A program made the position numbers and the translations under genes. From the IMG/VR virus record IMGVR_UViG_3300042401_000523, positions 1 to 23,601 of that record: a DNA stretch of 23,601 bases; one strand, 5' to 3'. Each line of letters opens with the position of its first letter. Within the stretch, counting starts at the first letter, position 1. This document shows positions 16,927-23,601 of the stretch, one piece after another. This stretch comes from a virus. The notes under the pieces are model-generated. The model was not told where the DNA came from. It saw only the letters and a program-made list of their open reading frames with translations, and did not search any database.

Positions 16927-17286
16927 ATGAGTCATTCACCACAACAATTCGTACTAACACTACTACACAGCATTACTAACGCTCACATACTGCACTTCCA
17001 GACCAAAAGCTATAGCGAACACGTTGCGCTAGGTATGTACTATGAGGAACTAGAAGATCTAGTAGATTCATTCGTAGAGGCGTATCAAGGCTGCTACGGA
17101 ATCATAGATGATTATGAGAAGTATTACTTACTACCTACACCACCACTAAAGTATCTGACAAGTCTAAGTAAGTATGTAGAAGATGAAAGAAAGAAGCTAC
17201 CGCAAGACTCAGAGCTACAGAATATAATAGATGAGATAGCACAACTAATCGACAGCACCATCTACAAGCTGAAATTCCTAGCATGA
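16927..17286 (+). CDS. DUF5856 family protein (ferritin/Dps-like helical bundle)
   Basis: The 119-residue protein follows the family closely: FVLTLLHSITNAHILHFQTKSYSEHVALGMYYE, LVDSFVEAYQGCYGIIDDY, and DSELQNIIDEIAQLIDSTIYKLKFL. Four long helices with His and Glu residues suggest a Dps-like bundle; the function in phages is not established. GGAG lies six bases before the ATG. The next gene begins in its stop (ATGA). Confidence 0.82.
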   Translation: MSHSPQQFVLTLLHSITNAHILHFQTKSYSEHVALGMYYEELEDLVDSFVEAYQGCYGIIDDYEKYYLLPTPPLKYLTSLSKYVEDERKKLPQDSELQNIIDEIAQLIDSTIYKLKFLA

Positions 17287-17477: not shown

Positions 17478-17767
17478 TGGCATTAAAAAAACACAAAATA
17501 GTAGGAGCTGGGCCGGGCAGACCTAAAGGGGCAGCTAACAAGGCCACAAGCAATGCTAGAGAGGCTATAGCTCGTTTTGTAGACGGTAATGCACATAGAG
17601 TACAACAATGGCTAGATGCGATAGCAGCAGAGAATGGGCCACTGATGGCGTTCCGATGCTATACAGACATGATTGAGTACCATGTACCAAAATTGAGCCG
17701 CACAGAACTGACAGGCAAGAACGATGGGCCAGTAGAAATCACGATAAAATGGAAAGCACCGAAATAG
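17474..17767 (+). CDS. Terminase small subunit-like protein
   Basis: The 97-residue basic protein has GPGRPKGAANKATSNAREA near the start (a GRPKG AT-hook-like element), a helix IARFVDGNAHRVQQWLDAIA, and the tail IEYHVPKLSRTELTGKNDGP. This layout is typical of small DNA-binding proteins immediately before phage large terminases, where they recognise the packaging site. It overlaps the large subunit by 19 bp. It is shorter than many small terminases, so a non-terminase DNA-binding role cannot be excluded. Confidence 0.75.
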   Translation: MMALKKHKIVGAGPGRPKGAANKATSNAREAIARFVDGNAHRVQQWLDAIAAENGPLMAFRCYTDMIEYHVPKLSRTELTGKNDGPVEITIKWKAPK

Positions 17768-19086
17768 AAATGGACTACCAGCCCCGGCTGGCGTTCATGC
17801 CGTTTCATGAGAGGACAGAGCGCTGGGCCTGTCTAGTAGCTCACAGACGCGCAGGTAAGACCGTAGCAGCTATCAATGACTTGATACGAGCAGCGGCTCT
17901 CTGTGCTAGTCCTATGCCCCTATTTGCCTACATAGCTCCATACCGCAGTCAGGCCAAGTCCGTAGCGTGGGAATACCTCAAGCACTACGCACGACCAATA
18001 CTCGCATCAGTCAATGAGTCTGACCTATATGTAGACCTAGTGAACGGAGCTAGGATAAGGCTATTTGGCGCCGATAATGCTGATGCCATGAGAGGTTTGG
18101 GATTTGATGGCCTTTTTCTGGACGAATACGCAGATTTTAAGCCTAGTGTATTTGGCAATATCCTAAGACCTGCTCTATCAGACAAGCAAGGTTGGTGCGT
18201 GTTTGCATCTACTCCAAAGGGTAAGAATGCCTTTTGGACTATCTACAGTACCGCCCTAAGAATACCTAGCGAGTGGTTTTGCCTTAACCTGCCTGCATCG
18301 GTCAGCAAGCTATTGCCAGAGGGTGAGCTGTCGGCTGCTAAGGCACAGTTATCCGAAGATCAATATATGCAAGAGTACGAATGCTCATTCGAGGCTGCGA
18401 TACTTGGCGCGTTCTACGGCACAGAGATGCGTGAGGCTACAGAGCAAGGGCGCGTTACGCGCGTGCATTACGATAATAACGTGCCTGTTCATACTGCATT
18501 CGACCTCGGTTATAGAGACGATACGGCGGTCTGGTTCTATCAGGTCATCAGAGATGAAGTACATATAATTGATTATTACGCCGTTTCTGGTGCAAATATT
18601 GATGAAATTGCTGCAAATATCCTGTCAAGGCCGTATAATTTCGGTAAGCACTATTTACCTCATGATGCTAGAGCTAAGACATTGGCGGCTGCTGGTAAGT
18701 CAGTAATCGAGCAGTTGGCGGTACATTTTGGCATCAATAGCCTAGCTATCGTGCCAGACCTGTCAGTACAAGACGGTATACAGGCTGTGCGTAAAGTCTT
18801 GCCGCAGTGCTGGTTTGATGCAGACAAGTGCAGTGAAGGTATTGAGGCTTTACGCCAGTACCAACGAGAGTATGATGAGGACAAGAAGGCTTTCCGGCAG
18901 ACGCCACGACATGACTGGTGTAGTCATCCGGCAGACGCTTTCCGAATGTTATCAATAGCATGGCGGTCAGAGCCGCGAGTCAGACAGCCTGATGCAGCTA
19001 AACCGCTGATGGTAGGAGAGCAAAACACAGCAACTTTGAATGATGTGTGGGCGCAAGCAAATCAACCTAAGAGAGGCAGAATATGA
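17749..19086 (+). CDS. terL: Terminase large subunit
   Basis: The 445-residue protein powers DNA packaging and cuts the concatemer. The ATPase half has Walker A-type VAHRRAGKTVAAI (~30-42) and Walker B GLFLDEYADF (~119-128), then CVFASTPKGKNAFW as the coupling motif. The nuclease half shows AFDLGYRDDTAVW (first acidic cluster), the middle YLPHDARAKTL, and HDWCSHPADAFRML with the last metal-binding Asp. The start at 17749 overlaps the small subunit gene; an ATG at 17770 is an alternative since the conserved part begins near DYQPR. Length and motif spacing are normal. Confidence 0.95.
   Translation: MESTEIEMDYQPRLAFMPFHERTERWACLVAHRRAGKTVAAINDLIRAAALCASPMPLFAYIAPYRSQAKSVAWEYLKHYARPILASVNESDLYVDLVNGARIRLFGADNADAMRGLGFDGLFLDEYADFKPSVFGNILRPALSDKQGWCVFASTPKGKNAFWTIYSTALRIPSEWFCLNLPASVSKLLPEGELSAAKAQLSEDQYMQEYECSFEAAILGAFYGTEMREATEQGRVTRVHYDNNVPVHTAFDLGYRDDTAVWFYQVIRDEVHIIDYYAVSGANIDEIAANILSRPYNFGKHYLPHDARAKTLAAAGKSVIEQLAVHFGINSLAIVPDLSVQDGIQAVRKVLPQCWFDADKCSEGIEALRQYQREYDEDKKAFRQTPRHDWCSHPADAFRMLSIAWRSEPRVRQPDAAKPLMVGEQNTATLNDVWAQANQPKRGRI
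18450..18462. repeat. Perfect inverted repeat GCGCG-TTA-CGCGC in terL
   Basis: A 5-3-5 palindrome with the same arms as the one at 11130-11142. Possible protein-binding site or chance. Confidence 0.6.
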
Positions 19087-19403
19087 GCATACAATCACCA
19101 TTTAGATACCAATCCGAACACGTTGCAGTCAGTCAAACAGCACAAGTCTTAGGCGGCACAGGCGCAATCGGTGACTACATCCACAGACTAATATGTACAG
19201 TCAGCACCGCTGCTACAGGCAATGTAGTTCTGGTAGATGGAACAGGCGTAGGCATATTGAGCCATACCATTCTTCCTGCATCATGCGGCACAGGTATCAA
19301 TGTCTACAATATCGAGATCAACGCTGCATCTACTACTGGTGCATGGAAAGTAACGACAGGAGCGGGTGTTGAGGTCATGGCTGTAGGTATATTCTCAGCA
19401 TAA
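19083..19403 (+). CDS. Small beta-rich protein between terminase and portal
   Basis: The 106-residue protein is rich in Gly, Thr, Val and Ala with alternating strands (GDYIHRLICTVSTAATGNVVLVDGTG; GINVYNIEINAASTTGAWKVTTGAGVEVM), like a small beta-sandwich. Similar proteins occur near head genes of related phages, without established function; a head decoration or virion accessory is possible. It overlaps terL by 4 bp, and its last base is shared with the next start. Confidence 0.72.
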   Translation: MSIQSPFRYQSEHVAVSQTAQVLGGTGAIGDYIHRLICTVSTAATGNVVLVDGTGVGILSHTILPASCGTGINVYNIEINAASTTGAWKVTTGAGVEVMAVGIFSA

Positions 19404-19774
19404 TGCCAAGTCCTAAGCAATATGCAGAAGGTCTGAGTGCTATGACTGACAAAAAAGAAGCCTTATTTCAGTCTGGCATTCGTGCTACTCCGTGGTTTAC
19501 TGAGTTTGTAGACACATACGGAGAAGAACCCGATCTTTCACCTAGCGCAGATTACAATTATCGCAAGGCTTGGGATGCTGGTCTAAGGCCATCACCTAAC
19601 GAATATGATAATAATAGGCATCATTGGCCCTCTGCACTACCTAATGGAGAGATGTTAAAAGAGCAAGGTCATCCGACTCTATGGAAAGAGCATTACATGA
19701 GAGCTACGGGAACAGACCCAGACTCTGTTGGAGCTACAGAACAGGATTATTTAAGGCTATATGCCAAGCCCTAA
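19403..19774 (+). CDS. Conserved small phage protein with MPSPK N-terminus
   Basis: The 123-residue protein starts MPSPKQYAEGL and then carries a compact module rich in Trp, Tyr, Pro and Asp: DYNYRKAWDAGLRPSPNEYD, HHWPSALPNGEMLKEQGHPT, WKEHYMRATGTDPDS. That module recurs in phage proteins near the head genes, with unknown role. The first eleven residues are nearly repeated at the start of the next protein (MPSPKELAAGL). It overlaps the next gene by 14 bp. Confidence 0.75.
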   Translation: MPSPKQYAEGLSAMTDKKEALFQSGIRATPWFTEFVDTYGEEPDLSPSADYNYRKAWDAGLRPSPNEYDNNRHHWPSALPNGEMLKEQGHPTLWKEHYMRATGTDPDSVGATEQDYLRLYAKP

Positions 19775-21575
19775 AGAACTAGCCGCTGGTCTTAGAAACC
19801 AAGAGGCAACATCACCTAATTCAAAAGTGATGTTTGTGGGGCAAGAACACGGAAAGAAAACGGCCTTGCCTGACAATGTTAAGAAGATGGTTGAGAAGTA
19901 TGGCGCGTACTATGAAGGCGCTGGAGGCGATAAGTCAGATGCAATCAAGTATCAAGGTTCATGGGATGACAAAGCTAGTAAGGAAGTAAAAGGCTACCCA
20001 AAGGAGTTTCTATACACCCTATTTACAAATAGCAATGTTAATAACCAGAAGAAAAACTTAACACAACCAGACAAGACTATCTTTGATAGCGCACTAGCGG
20101 CTCAAGGTAAATGGGGGTACTTCAAGGATCGTAAGTTTGACGCAGATACTCTTAAACAGTTTTTATCAGCATCAGGAATGCTGGATAAGAGTAAACAACC
20201 TGCTACTGAGAGTAACGTAAAGAAGTTTATTGACGAAGGGGAAGGGCTGATGTGGCCCAAGAATTGGGAGGAGTATCCCAACCCTGCTGGTAAACTAGCG
20301 CAAAAAGCTAGTGAATACAGAACAAACTGGCTTAAATCGCAAAAAGAAGGGGTCTATTTTGTTGGGTCAGACCACATGAAAGAATTAAATAAACCTAAAG
20401 ATAATGAGACTGCTCCATCACAACTAGCCAAAGCCTTAGCTAGGCAAGACTCAGTAACTAAACAGCCTCGTAATAGGTTTCTTGGCGCTGTTGCTGACGC
20501 TGCTGGCTATGTATCAGATCAAGCCGATAGGTATGTAGTACCCGAACGCGATCCCTTATTTGGAGGTATGCGTGGTGGTGATCTGCTGCCGCTAAGGAAC
20601 GTCAACAGACTGCTAGACGATCTAAGCTACGGTGGGCGCATAACTACAGGCAGAGGGCAGACTACAACGCTAAGGCCAGAAGTAGTTGATACTGTTGCGT
20701 TAGGCGGGGCAATGATGCCTGTTGCTAAGAGTCTAGGTAAGGCTGCGCTGAGAGAAGGCGCTAGGCAGATTGAGACTGGTACTGGTATTGGTAGGGCTGT
20801 AGTTGACCCTAGACAGCCAATAATTACTTATCACGGCTCACCTCATACCTTCCCACCAACAGCTAATAATCCGTTAGGTGAGTTTGACCCAATGAAGGTA
20901 GGAACAGGCGAGGGAGCGCAAGCCTATGGTACGGGTGCTGCATATTTAGCTGAAGCAAAGAAACTTGCAGAGGGTTACGCTGGTGCAAATGCAGGGAGGG
21001 CAGCGGCTTTTGACGGGTTGATTGATTTATTGCCAAAACCTGCTCAGATGGAAGTATACAAGGCAATGCAAATGACAGATGGGCCATTCAAAAAAGCAAA
21101 AATAGATGATATTGTTTCAAGATTTCCAGAATCATCACCAGTATTTCAAGCAAATACGGGCAATCTCTACAAAGTAGACCTACCAGACGAACACGTTGCA
21201 AAAATGCTCGATTGGGATAAGCCATTGAGTGAGCAGCATCCTAGTGTGCAATCAGCACTAGCAAAATTAGACCCAGATTTGTATCACCCGACAGGAAATG
21301 AATATTCTCCAGACGAGGTTGGAGCAGAGACTTATTTAAGAATGGCAAATAGTCCTCTAGCTAAAAACCAATCTGATGCTTCTGAAGTTATGCGTAACGC
21401 TGGCATTACAGGCATACGATACCTAGATGCTGCTAGTAGAGACGCTGCTGGCAAAGGTACATCTAATTTCGTAGTATTTGACCCTAAGCACATGAACATT
21501 CTCGAACGTAGCGGGGCAACACCAAGCGCAAGTAGGTTAGAAGCAAATAGACTTGCAGACGCACTTAAACAATAA
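19761..21575 (+). CDS. Large polyvalent-type protein with C-terminal ADP-ribosyltransferase-like domain
   Basis: The 604-residue protein begins MPSPKELAAGL, shared with the preceding gene. Residues ~15-215 form an unrecognised Lys/Tyr/Trp-rich region. Residues ~235-350 are the linker seen in phage polyvalent proteins (GDLLPLRNVNRLLDDLSYGG, RPEVVDTVALGGAMMP). Residues ~355-600 resemble the ART-PolyVal domain: TYHGSPHTF, GTGEGAQAYGTGAAYLAEA, LYKVDLPDEHVAKMLDWDKP, GITGIRYLDAASR, SNFVVFDPKHMNILER. Such domains are predicted to transfer ADP-ribose from NAD+ to host targets. Placement between terminase and portal, not among early genes, suggests a virion-carried protein released on entry; this is inference. 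Activity is untested, and the third catalytic residue cannot be fixed by eye. Confidence 0.8.
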   Translation: MPSPKELAAGLRNQEATSPNSKVMFVGQEHGKKTALPDNVKKMVEKYGAYYEGAGGDKSDAIKYQGSWDDKASKEVKGYPKEFLYTLFTNSNVNNQKKNLTQPDKTIFDSALAAQGKWGYFKDRKFDADTLKQFLSASGMLDKSKQPATESNVKKFIDEGEGLMWPKNWEEYPNPAGKLAQKASEYRTNWLKSQKEGVYFVGSDHMKELNKPKDNETAPSQLAKALARQDSVTKQPRNRFLGAVADAAGYVSDQADRYVVPERDPLFGGMRGGDLLPLRNVNRLLDDLSYGGRITTGRGQTTTLRPEVVDTVALGGAMMPVAKSLGKAALREGARQIETGTGIGRAVVDPRQPIITYHGSPHTFPPTANNPLGEFDPMKVGTGEGAQAYGTGAAYLAEAKKLAEGYAGANAGRAAAFDGLIDLLPKPAQMEVYKAMQMTDGPFKKAKIDDIVSRFPESSPVFQANTGNLYKVDLPDEHVAKMLDWDKPLSEQHPSVQSALAKLDPDLYHPTGNEYSPDEVGAETYLRMANSPLAKNQSDASEVMRNAGITGIRYLDAASRDAAGKGTSNFVVFDPKHMNILERSGATPSASRLEANRLADALKQ

Positions 21576-21583
21576 GGCACAAA

Positions 21584-23601
21584 ATGACCGAAACCCCAAT
21601 CGAGAAGTATCTAAACGTAATCGGCGCATACGACAACGAGTACAAGAAGTGGGAAGCTCGTTCTGCAAAGATCGTTAAGCGCTACAGAGATGATAACCGC
21701 AGCCAGAACTCTAACGAGACGGCAAAGTTTAATATTCTGTGGTCGAACGTACAGACCTTAATCCCAGCGGTCTATTCTAAGCTGCCTATGGCTGACGTAT
21801 CACGCCGCTTCGGAGACAATGACCAAGTAGGCCGTGTTGCCTCACAGATCATTCAGAGAGCGATTGACTACGAGATTGAGCATTACCCAGACTTCAGAGC
21901 GACTATGAAGAATGCGGTGCAGGATCGCTTTCTTGGTGGTCGTGGTGTTGCATGGGTACGCTACGAGCCACACTTAATCGAACGTGATATGCCAGAAGAT
22001 GGGCTACAGGTCACTGAGGACGCTGATGAGGTAGAGAACGATACAGCAGAGACATACGAAGAGATTGAGTACGAGTGCGCTCCTACCGATTACGTTCACT
22101 GGAAGGATTTTGGTCACTCAGTAGCTCGTACATGGGAAGAGGTTACGGTAGTATGGCGCTGGGCTTACATGACGCGCGAGGCGCTTATAGAGCGTTTTGG
22201 CGAGGAGTCTGCAAAGAAGATACCTCTGGACAGCGGCCCACAGACACTAACTTCCTATGGTCAGTCTAGCAAAGAGCATACACGCGCTAAGATATGTGAG
22301 CTATGGGATAAGGAAAGCGGCAAGGTCTACTGGTTTAGCAAGAACAGCAACTACATCATAGACGAGCGTGATGACCCTATCGAGGTAGAAGGCTTTTTCC
22401 CCTGCGGTAAGCCTTTGTACGCTACTTTAACCTCTGATTCTCTAGTACCTGTACCTGACTTTGTGCTATATCAAGATCAAGCTACTGAGCTGGACATTTT
22501 AAGCGACAGAATTGATGGTCTGGTCAAGGCTCTGAGGGTACGAGGAGTATATGACGCAAGCCAGCCAACGCTACAACGTCTACTGACAGAGGGAGACAAT
22601 AATACTCTGATACCTGTCGATAAGTGGATGGCATTCAGTGAAAAGGGTGGGCTGAAGGGTAGTATCGACATCCTACCGCTAGATGTCATAGCTGCTACGC
22701 TCATCAACTGCTACCGGGCAAGAGAGGACATAAAGAGCCAGATTTACGAGATTACAGGCATATCCGACATTATCAGGGGTCAGACCAGTGCAAGCGAGAC
22801 TGCAACTGCACAACAGATCAAAGGCCAGTATGCAGGGCTAAGATTAAGAGCAATGCAAGAAGAGGTGGCATTGTTTGCGTCTAGCCTGATTAAGCTCAAA
22901 GCGCAGATCATGTGTACCAAGTTCCAACCACAGACTCTATTGCAGTACGCTTCTGCACAGCAGATGTCTGAGGCAGATCAGCAATTGATACCACAAGCTA
23001 TAGAGCTTCTTAAAGACTCGCCACTAGCTAACTTTAGAATAGATGTCGAGGCTGACAGTCTGGTGCAGTTGGATGAAGATCAGAACAAGCGTAACCGTGT
23101 AGAGTTCTTAACAGCGTTTGGCGGCTTCTTAGGCCAAGCCTTACCTGTAGGCCGTGAGTCACCTGAGATGATACCAATGCTGGTAGAGGTCATGAAGTTC
23201 GGCATAGGAGCGTTTAAGCAAGCAGAACCTATCGAGGGTACTCTTGATACCGCACTGGAACAGATGAAGGCAGCATCACAACAGCCTAAACAGCCACAGC
23301 CCGACCCTGAGCAGATGAAGATGCAAGCCCAACAGCAGTCTGAACAGATGAAAATGCAAGCAGACGCACAAGCTGCTCAGATGAAGGCTCAGATTGACGT
23401 ACAGGCTCAACAGGCACGAGTACAGGCTGATATGCAGATCGAACAGATGAAGCTACAGGCAGACGCACAGCTAGAGCAGATGCGCCAACAGATGAAGATG
23501 CAGGAGCTACAGTACCTAGATCAGTTTAATCGCTACAAAGCACAACTAGACTCATCTACTCGCATCATGGTCGCAGAGATAGGTGCAAAGGCACAGGTAG
23601 A
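21584..23601 (+). CDS. Portal protein (P22-type), 3' end outside window
   Basis: The ATG at 21584 follows the previous stop by 8 bp, and the frame is open to the last base (672 codons visible). The N-terminal part carries the portal pattern: YLNVIGAYDNEYKKWEAR, KFNILWSNVQTLIPAVYSKL, FRATMKNAVQDRFLGGRGVA; the middle has YEITGISDIIRG and ETATAQQIKGQYAGLR. This layout matches P22-type portal proteins, the dodecameric gate through which DNA is packaged and ejected. From about residue 560 the sequence becomes Gln/Met-rich repeats (EQMKMQAQ, EQMKMQAD, EQMKLQAD), a long coiled coil likely equivalent to a helical barrel. Confidence 0.9.
   Translation, partial: MTETPIEKYLNVIGAYDNEYKKWEARSAKIVKRYRDDNRSQNSNETAKFNILWSNVQTLIPAVYSKLPMADVSRRFGDNDQVGRVASQIIQRAIDYEIEHYPDFRATMKNAVQDRFLGGRGVAWVRYEPHLIERDMPEDGLQVTEDADEVENDTAETYEEIEYECAPTDYVHWKDFGHSVARTWEEVTVVWRWAYMTREALIERFGEESAKKIPLDSGPQTLTSYGQSSKEHTRAKICELWDKESGKVYWFSKNSNYIIDERDDPIEVEGFFPCGKPLYATLTSDSLVPVPDFVLYQDQATELDILSDRIDGLVKALRVRGVYDASQPTLQRLLTEGDNNTLIPVDKWMAFSEKGGLKGSIDILPLDVIAATLINCYRAREDIKSQIYEITGISDIIRGQTSASETATAQQIKGQYAGLRLRAMQEEVALFASSLIKLKAQIMCTKFQPQTLLQYASAQQMSEADQQLIPQAIELLKDSPLANFRIDVEADSLVQLDEDQNKRNRVEFLTAFGGFLGQALPVGRESPEMIPMLVEVMKFGIGAFKQAEPIEGTLDTALEQMKAASQQPKQPQPDPEQMKMQAQQQSEQMKMQADAQAAQMKAQIDVQAQQARVQADMQIEQMKLQADAQLEQMRQQMKMQELQYLDQFNRYKAQLDSSTRIMVAEIGAKAQV

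Follow-up and report, generated by a model that had tools for sequence, protein, structure and literature searches.

A 604-residue protein encoded between the genes for the terminase large subunit (TerL) and the portal of an uncultured phage is probably a modular effector of the polyvalent type, carried as cargo in an accessory slot, loaded into the prohead by means of a short N-terminal tag and injected, with a C-terminal ADP-ribosyltransferase (ART) and a conserved N-terminal domain (N-domain) both acting in the host. According to this scheme, the protein would be made late, alongside the head proteins; the 12-residue tag, which is common to the neighbouring slot genes, would bring it into the prohead, and it would be injected together with the DNA. 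In the next host, the ART, which has the H-Y-D residues, would transfer ADP-ribose to a molecule of the host or of a defence, with the N-domain serving as a second effector, possibly a hydrolase of the TraB/TIKI type. Swaps of whole domains and of two segments within the ART would change the target or the specificity between close phages.

The gene and its neighbourhood

The window, i.e. the whole stretch of DNA analysed, comprises the 23,601 bases of a virus record. The open reading frame noted there by the first-pass annotation is real: it starts with ATG, is uninterrupted by internal stops and has relatives encoded in 48 viral loci, which is more than chance. Its start overlaps the end of the upstream 123-aa ORF, and 8 bases separate it from the downstream portal gene (Table 1). 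The same annotation had proposed a two-domain polyvalent-type protein with domains at residues 15-215 and 355-600; the architecture is borne out by the occurrence of the N-domain and ART both apart and combined in other arrangements, and the limits were good.

Table 1. Features of the TerL-portal slot and its walls in the window.
Feature	Position	Strand	Family match
TerL, terminase large subunit, left wall of the slot	17749..19086	+	PF03237 2e-8; phrog_2 1.6e-37
106-aa ORF at the slot start, present in most relatives, without tag and without family	19083..19403	+	
123-aa ORF with the same tag as the ART gene (MPSPKQYAEGL), without family	19403..19774	+	
Two-domain polyvalent-type protein, 604 aa	19761..21575	+	
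N-terminal tag MPSPKELAAGLRNQ, residues 1-14, candidate cargo address	19761..19802	+	
N-domain, residues 15-211, new conserved phage domain; GxxH 27-30, E52, R187, GxxH 202-205	19803..20393	+	
Middle region, residues 212-353, opening with a second tag copy	20394..20819	+	
ART domain, residues 354-592; H358 at 20832-20834, Y395 at 20943-20945, D574 at 21480-21482	20820..21536	+	
Variable segment V1, within the ART	20958..21158	+	
Variable segment V2, within the ART	21225..21401	+	
Portal, right wall of the slot, continuing past the window end	21584..23599	+	phrog_12082 1.2e-180

The TerL-portal interval is a variable slot, filled with accessory genes and exchanged domains. TerL lies upstream and the portal downstream of the related gene in 13 of the 48 loci, many of the other contigs being short. 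Within the close group, the portals are 95-100% and the TerL proteins 88-100% identical, and the gene between them varies. It encodes the N-domain with one ART in the window and L003, with two ARTs in L005 and with other C-terminal parts in L007 and L008/L009, whereas the slots lacking the N-domain hold one ART with a second ART-like part (L013, L018 and L023) or LPD23, ART and an ART-like part (L025). The first 354 residues of the L007 protein are 97% identical to those of the window protein and the remainder is unrelated. Both LPD23 (PF18838, 6e-14) and ParB-like modules are borne by slot relatives. TerL and portal are directly adjacent in Mx8, BUCT555 and ppBjS10J-1, all three of the cultured relatives (by portal) that were examined, the ppBjS10J-1 TerL being an unnamed gene of matching size.

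The first-pass annotation had regarded the position between terminase and portal as odd. This did not hold up: the position is not anomalous, because phage ARTs are already known to lie often near terminase, portal and capsid genes, with about 44% of the recovered ARTs found in contexts suggestive of head packaging, according to the part of a published survey used here (Iyer et al., 2022; PMC9503650).

Two further slot arrangements were recorded. At L007:1514-2500 and L008:2998-4194, the ART is replaced behind a near-identical front by sequences with no Pfam or PHROG match at E ≤ 1, and at L012:3-2570 a single polypeptide comprises an ART, a ParB-like module and an additional C-terminal part.

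A probable divergent, mosaic ADP-ribosyltransferase domain

Searches with the whole 604-aa protein yielded no Pfam family at E ≤ 1 and nothing of note in NCBIfam and PHROGs, and tblastn with the same query against phages matched the ART part alone, in 3 records. The ART was recognised via its relatives only, not by a family match of the whole protein. On its own, the piece comprising residues 354-592 matches PF18760 (ART-PolyVal) with an E-value of 0.26 and 12.5 bits, the curated Pfam cut-off being 31.2 bits; at E ≤ 1, this family was matched by 5 of the 18 aligned ART sequences (best, 0.018), and its cut-off was reached by none of 16 records. Nevertheless, Y395 and D574 are conserved in all 18 sequences and H358 in 17. 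In polyvalent ARTs of the ART-PolyVal/Tox-ART-HYD2 clade, the H is located on strand 1, the Y on strand 2 and the D on strand 5 (Iyer et al., 2017; PMC5512222, in the part drawn on), and the window ART displays this H-Y-D signature, with the residues assigned to strands by sequence order, given that the model is weak there. The match to ART-PolyVal reported by the first-pass annotation stands as far as the H-Y-D residues are concerned and falls as far as the PF18760 cut-off is. Judging from its conserved residues, the C-terminal part is likely to be a divergent H-Y-D ART, a predicted enzyme similar in its working to ART-PolyVal and lying outside PF18760. Structure prediction, which the same annotation had suggested for both parts, gave a low-confidence model here, with AlphaFold pLDDT values at the ART strands mostly <50 in the full-protein model, and values of 75-98 over most of residues 20-210, i.e. 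the N-domain. Among the BFVD matches of the model are two proteins named ART-PolyVal-like (E-values of 6.9e-9 and 3.1e-7, low TM). Some relatives contain further ART-like domains, with PF18760 matches that remain below the cut-off (L005, 2e-5; L025, 2.8e-5; L018, 7e-4).

Comparison of 17 ART sequences revealed a mosaic organization. Three conserved blocks have median DNA identities of 0.77-0.83, whereas the identities of V1 and V2, 0.57 and 0.56, are close to the shuffled baseline of 0.55. V1 is common to L001/L003, to L005/L011 and to L032/L036, and V2 is common to L001/L005/L012, to L018/L025 and to L040/L042. The two segments have been exchanged independently between close phages, with the surrounding blocks staying similar, which suggests exchange of specificity or of the attacked surfaces.

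A start shared by neighbouring slot genes

The 123-aa ORF and the 604-aa protein both begin with MPSPK, followed by [EQ][LY]Ax[GA]L. In the window, the 12-residue start MPS[PA]K[EQ][LY]Ax[GA]L occurs solely on the ORFs at 19403 and 19761. It is present on slot genes in 15 of the 18 close-group sequences (the window and 17 loci), the exceptions being L006 and the two loci that begin inside the gene (L012 and L019), and is carried by four kinds of ORF (88, 123 and 144 aa, and the large protein), which beyond residue 14 do not resemble one another. The tag was absent from the 102 control loci (8,335 Met starts) apart from L050/L051, duplicates of the L009/L010 contigs. This pattern and the N-terminus pattern discussed below were written after the sequences had been seen, so that the counts are descriptive; controls were run. 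In a second phage group, L038 and L040 each have two adjacent slot genes that carry MA[DE]xDR[IL]AAALRYQQ, the second copy in L040 starting with VAEAPRIAAAL. One tagged gene of this group, L040:4160-5050, is located between the ART gene and the portal, and its C-terminal part is no obvious ART.

A related string, LAxALxxQ, is found at residues 7, 222 (222-229, 20424-20447) and 598 (598-604, 21552-21572) of the window protein; three copies appeared in none of 2,000 shuffles of the 604-aa protein, for a pattern picked after inspection. The N-domain is thus flanked by two copies, those at residues 7 and 222, and the middle region is the N-terminus in relatives without the N-domain (L011, L013, L018, L023 and L025). 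The simplest reading is that a fusion joined two tagged genes, one for the N-domain and one for the ART.

By analogy with T4 (see below) and with DarB of phage P1, the first 30 residues of which suffice for head entry (PMC9024508, in the part used), we infer that the shared tag is a candidate cargo address. The main rival, that the 12-residue start anchors recombination or gene duplication at the DNA level rather than acting as a protein address, seems to us rather unlikely. It would fit the similarity of the DNA near the starts and the recombination of the ART itself at conserved DNA blocks, but synonymous positions differ between the starts while the protein string is kept, and a different although similar string is found on the slot genes of the second phage group.

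Distribution of the N-domain

A scan with nine sequences confirmed the N-domain in 105 viral stretches, of which 80 were kept. The approximately 200 N-terminal residues, which the first-pass annotation had set apart as unrecognised, form a separate, conserved domain. With the queries used, no relative was detected in the phage collection (at E ≤ 1 or 0.01) or in the plasmid collection, and searches of genome contigs by pattern and tblastn retained 0 of 203 and 0 of 51 candidates. Comparison of 34 members with Pfam and PHROGs gave noise only, there was no credible match among PDB sequences, and NCBIfam returned 0 matches for three N-domain proteins. A second AlphaFold model was built from an alignment of 16 N-domain rows rather than 34.

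The domain occurs alone (about 190-265 aa), before an ART as in the window, and within large proteins, such as those of L062 (at least 2,016 aa, with an ART), L070 (1,258 aa), L073 (1,890 aa) and L078 (2,085 aa); in L083 (1,821 aa) it is close to the C-terminus. Its gene lies downstream of the portal and major-capsid/protease genes in L110 and L090, and in the replication region in L053. In the large N-domain proteins of L069, L070, L072-L076 and L078, the interdomain regions repeatedly contain the string [QK]QG[VI][AST]E with G, N, D or A as the next residue; it may be a site at which a prohead protease cuts to release the modules.

The phages with T4-type gene order link this domain to internal head proteins. 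In L057, PHROGs identify the head closure protein Hc2, sheath stabiliser, TerS, TerL, sheath, tube and portal, with TerL assigned additionally by sequence and, in the overlapping loci L029 and L030, by tblastn. The N-domain gene and two other genes are located between TerS and TerL, and the three proteins begin alike, with MKSFKQFIKES, MKTFREFILEQ and MKTFRQFIREQ. Both IpII and IpIII of T4 begin with MKTYQEFIAEA, a start which constitutes the T4 capsid targeting sequence and is enough for a foreign protein to be taken into the head (Mullaney and Black, as cited in the part of PMC9024508 used). A pattern for IpII/IpIII starts, which matches both T4 proteins, is found on the N-domain gene in 7 of 11 T4-like loci, as well as in L080, L081 and L101; across 12 control loci it matched 0 of 1,180 starts. 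On visual inspection, L027, L031 and L033 begin with MKTFKQYIREQ, outside the pattern, and L063 and L082 begin otherwise. Because of this likeness to the T4 capsid targeting sequence, the N-domain protein is predicted to be packaged in those T4-like phages. Many stand-alone N-domain genes lack the T4-type N-terminus, and no IpII/IpIII-like start was found in the window, the 604-aa protein included.

The two other genes in L057 (L057:8916-9932) encode a family-less 177-aa protein and a 135-aa ParB-like protein (phrog_17560, phrog_33277), and a fourth IpII/IpIII-like start follows the portal gene of this locus.

Packaged cargo or late protein

An ART which is not packaged but acts in the producing cell, in late take-over, superinfection exclusion or lysis timing, and which is merely co-transcribed with the packaging genes, is in our estimate unlikely. 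Late co-expression alone would explain the place of a gene that starts within the upstream ORF and ends right before the portal gene, and packaging is not known for the ART of phiGT1, the gene for which is located between portal and scaffold, i.e. on the other side of the portal. A tag common to unrelated neighbours and IpII/IpIII-like starts on the N-domain relatives would not, however, be expected of such a protein, and the survey, in the part used, ties such contexts to packaging (PMC9503650). Virion delivery of the 604-aa protein is the more likely course. Nonetheless, the points against the effector-cargo explanation include L006, in which N-domain and ART are present but the first tag is missing, the ART falling short of the PF18760 cut-off, the low AlphaFold confidence over this domain and the lack of a T4-type start in the window protein.

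The N-domain could alternatively be a packaging or scaffold adaptor, docking to the prohead or binding DNA, which would leave the ART as the sole effector. We give this little credence, even though the domain is the N-terminal module of the window protein and has head and tail genes around it at most of the loci inspected: many phages encode it on its own, it is C-terminal or mid-protein in the giants (L083, L070 and L076) and occurs once in a replication region (L053), its conserved G, H, E, D and R residues look catalytic, and relatives in the same slot do without it (L011, L013, L018, L023 and L025). A toxin-immunity pair, in which a small slot ORF protects the producer from the ART toxin, is highly improbable, since the small ORFs, although they travel with the ART gene and although the MuF toxins of temperate phages usually precede small ORFs proposed as immunity genes (PMC5576092, in the part used), lie upstream, the 123-aa ORF is missing beside the ART genes of L011, L013, L018 and L025, and it has the tag of the ART gene, which better suits a second cargo.

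A possible TraB/TIKI-type hydrolase

In the 34-row alignment of the N-domain, G27, H30, E52, D69, R187, G202 and H205 are invariant wherever a row covers them (G27 and H30 in 33/33, with one row truncated; E52, R187, and G202 and H205 in 34/34). In the model, the first GxxH follows strand 1, the E follows strand 2, the R belongs to the final long helix and the last strand is followed by the second GxxH. A TraB/GumN set (9 and later 13 sequences, including Escherichia coli YbaP and plasmid relatives) shows no variation at the six equivalent positions, which come in the same order. With the conserved GxxH-E-R-GxxH residues as its basis, the N-domain is tentatively put forward as a candidate TraB/TIKI-type hydrolase, an assignment about which we are less than evenly convinced. 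The likeness to TraB/GumN proteins (TIKI superfamily; YbaP) consists in the order of the motifs and their placement after the first and last model strands. By contrast, the N-domain gives no significant profile match, measures about 200 aa compared with about 260, and contains no counterpart that we found of A148 and E159, which are invariant in TraB.

The profile comparison was weak. In hhalign, N-domain and TraB aligned with probabilities of only 5.9% and 2.3%, although the scores exceeded those of 120/120 and 100/100 column shuffles; when pieces were compared, the C-terminal score was reached by 1 and the N-terminal score by 8 of 100 shuffles. The TraB profile found nothing in PDB. Fold searches for the N-domain gave weak matches and nothing decisive. 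The only highly ranked match spanning the whole N-domain was chain DQ of Tetrahymena complex IV (Z 5.1, rmsd 7.8, 139 aligned residues; in the other search, Z 4.8, 3.8 Å, 115 aligned residues). A figure legend names a TraB-family subunit of the Tetrahymena supercomplex (PMC10060162); that chain DQ is this subunit is not established, and the match is a hint only. A literature search on phage TraB domains and virions found 0 papers, and the words TraB, TIKI and GumN are absent from PMC5512222.

Other identities for the domain were set aside. A second ART received an hhalign probability of 0.3% against the ART alignment; a histidine-phosphatase-like fold, considered on account of several phosphatases among the weak Foldseek matches, was dropped at TM values near 0.1; and the matches to KsgA/Dim1 and ABC ATPases covered only part of the N-domain, with Z at most 5.2.

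Relationship to known systems

Packaged phage ARTs and polyvalent proteins are already known. Like the polyvalent proteins with ART-PolyVal/Tox-ART-HYD2 domains (PMC5512222), the window protein is a phage-encoded, multi-domain chain with an H-Y-D ART; unlike them, it stays below the PF18760 cut-off, has an N-domain outside the families searched and an ART split by two exchangeable segments, and the part of that paper drawn on mentions neither tag nor slot. With the ARTs described beside terminase and portal genes (PMC9503650, in the part used), it shares the neighbourhood and the proposed head delivery, but it has no MuF or portal fusion, possesses the N-domain and is exchanged in a slot between near-identical phages. 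MuF polymorphic toxins likewise are encoded in the packaging module and combine a constant front with variable C-terminal parts, as in L007-L009 (Jamet et al., 2017; PMC5576092, in the part used); the window protein differs from them in lacking a MuF domain (no Pfam family at E ≤ 1 for the whole protein), in being encoded directly upstream rather than directly downstream of the portal, and in that its constant front is replaceable. As for T4 IpII and IpIII, the T4-like N-domain relatives start nearly identically to them and belong to clustered genes sharing that start. The slot genes of the window follow the same logic with another string, and the window protein differs from the T4 internal proteins in having no T4-type N-terminus.

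As far as the literature and databases were searched, what is new comprises the family of the N-domain, the occurrence of this domain both in proteins of the T4 internal type and as a module of polyvalent proteins, the tag, different from that of T4, which slot genes have in common, and the two-segment mosaic of the ART. A broader proposal, which we regard as speculative and on the doubtful side, is that the TerL-portal junction is a cargo dock, such that the product of any gene with the 12-residue start would be loaded and injected, the start doing for these phages what the capsid targeting sequence does for T4. The cargo would then consist of a widely shared effector domain, probably a TraB/TIKI-type hydrolase, which in T4-like phages is a separate internal protein, and an ART with cassette-shuffled specificity segments. 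If the reading of the gene as tagged effector cargo is right, a brief signal that can be put to the test would be available for bringing proteins into phage heads outside T4, short-tailed and T4-like phages would share a previously undescribed early effector domain, and the ART variants that nature has placed on a single phage backbone could serve to deduce which host targets are hit or which defences are evaded. The literatures on polyvalent proteins and on T4 internal proteins are joined here via one domain.

Elsewhere in the window, shortly upstream of the terminase genes, a 119-aa protein (16927-17286) belongs to DUF5856 (PF19174, 8.6e-26) and also to phrog_858, which is labelled as a starvation-inducible regulator.
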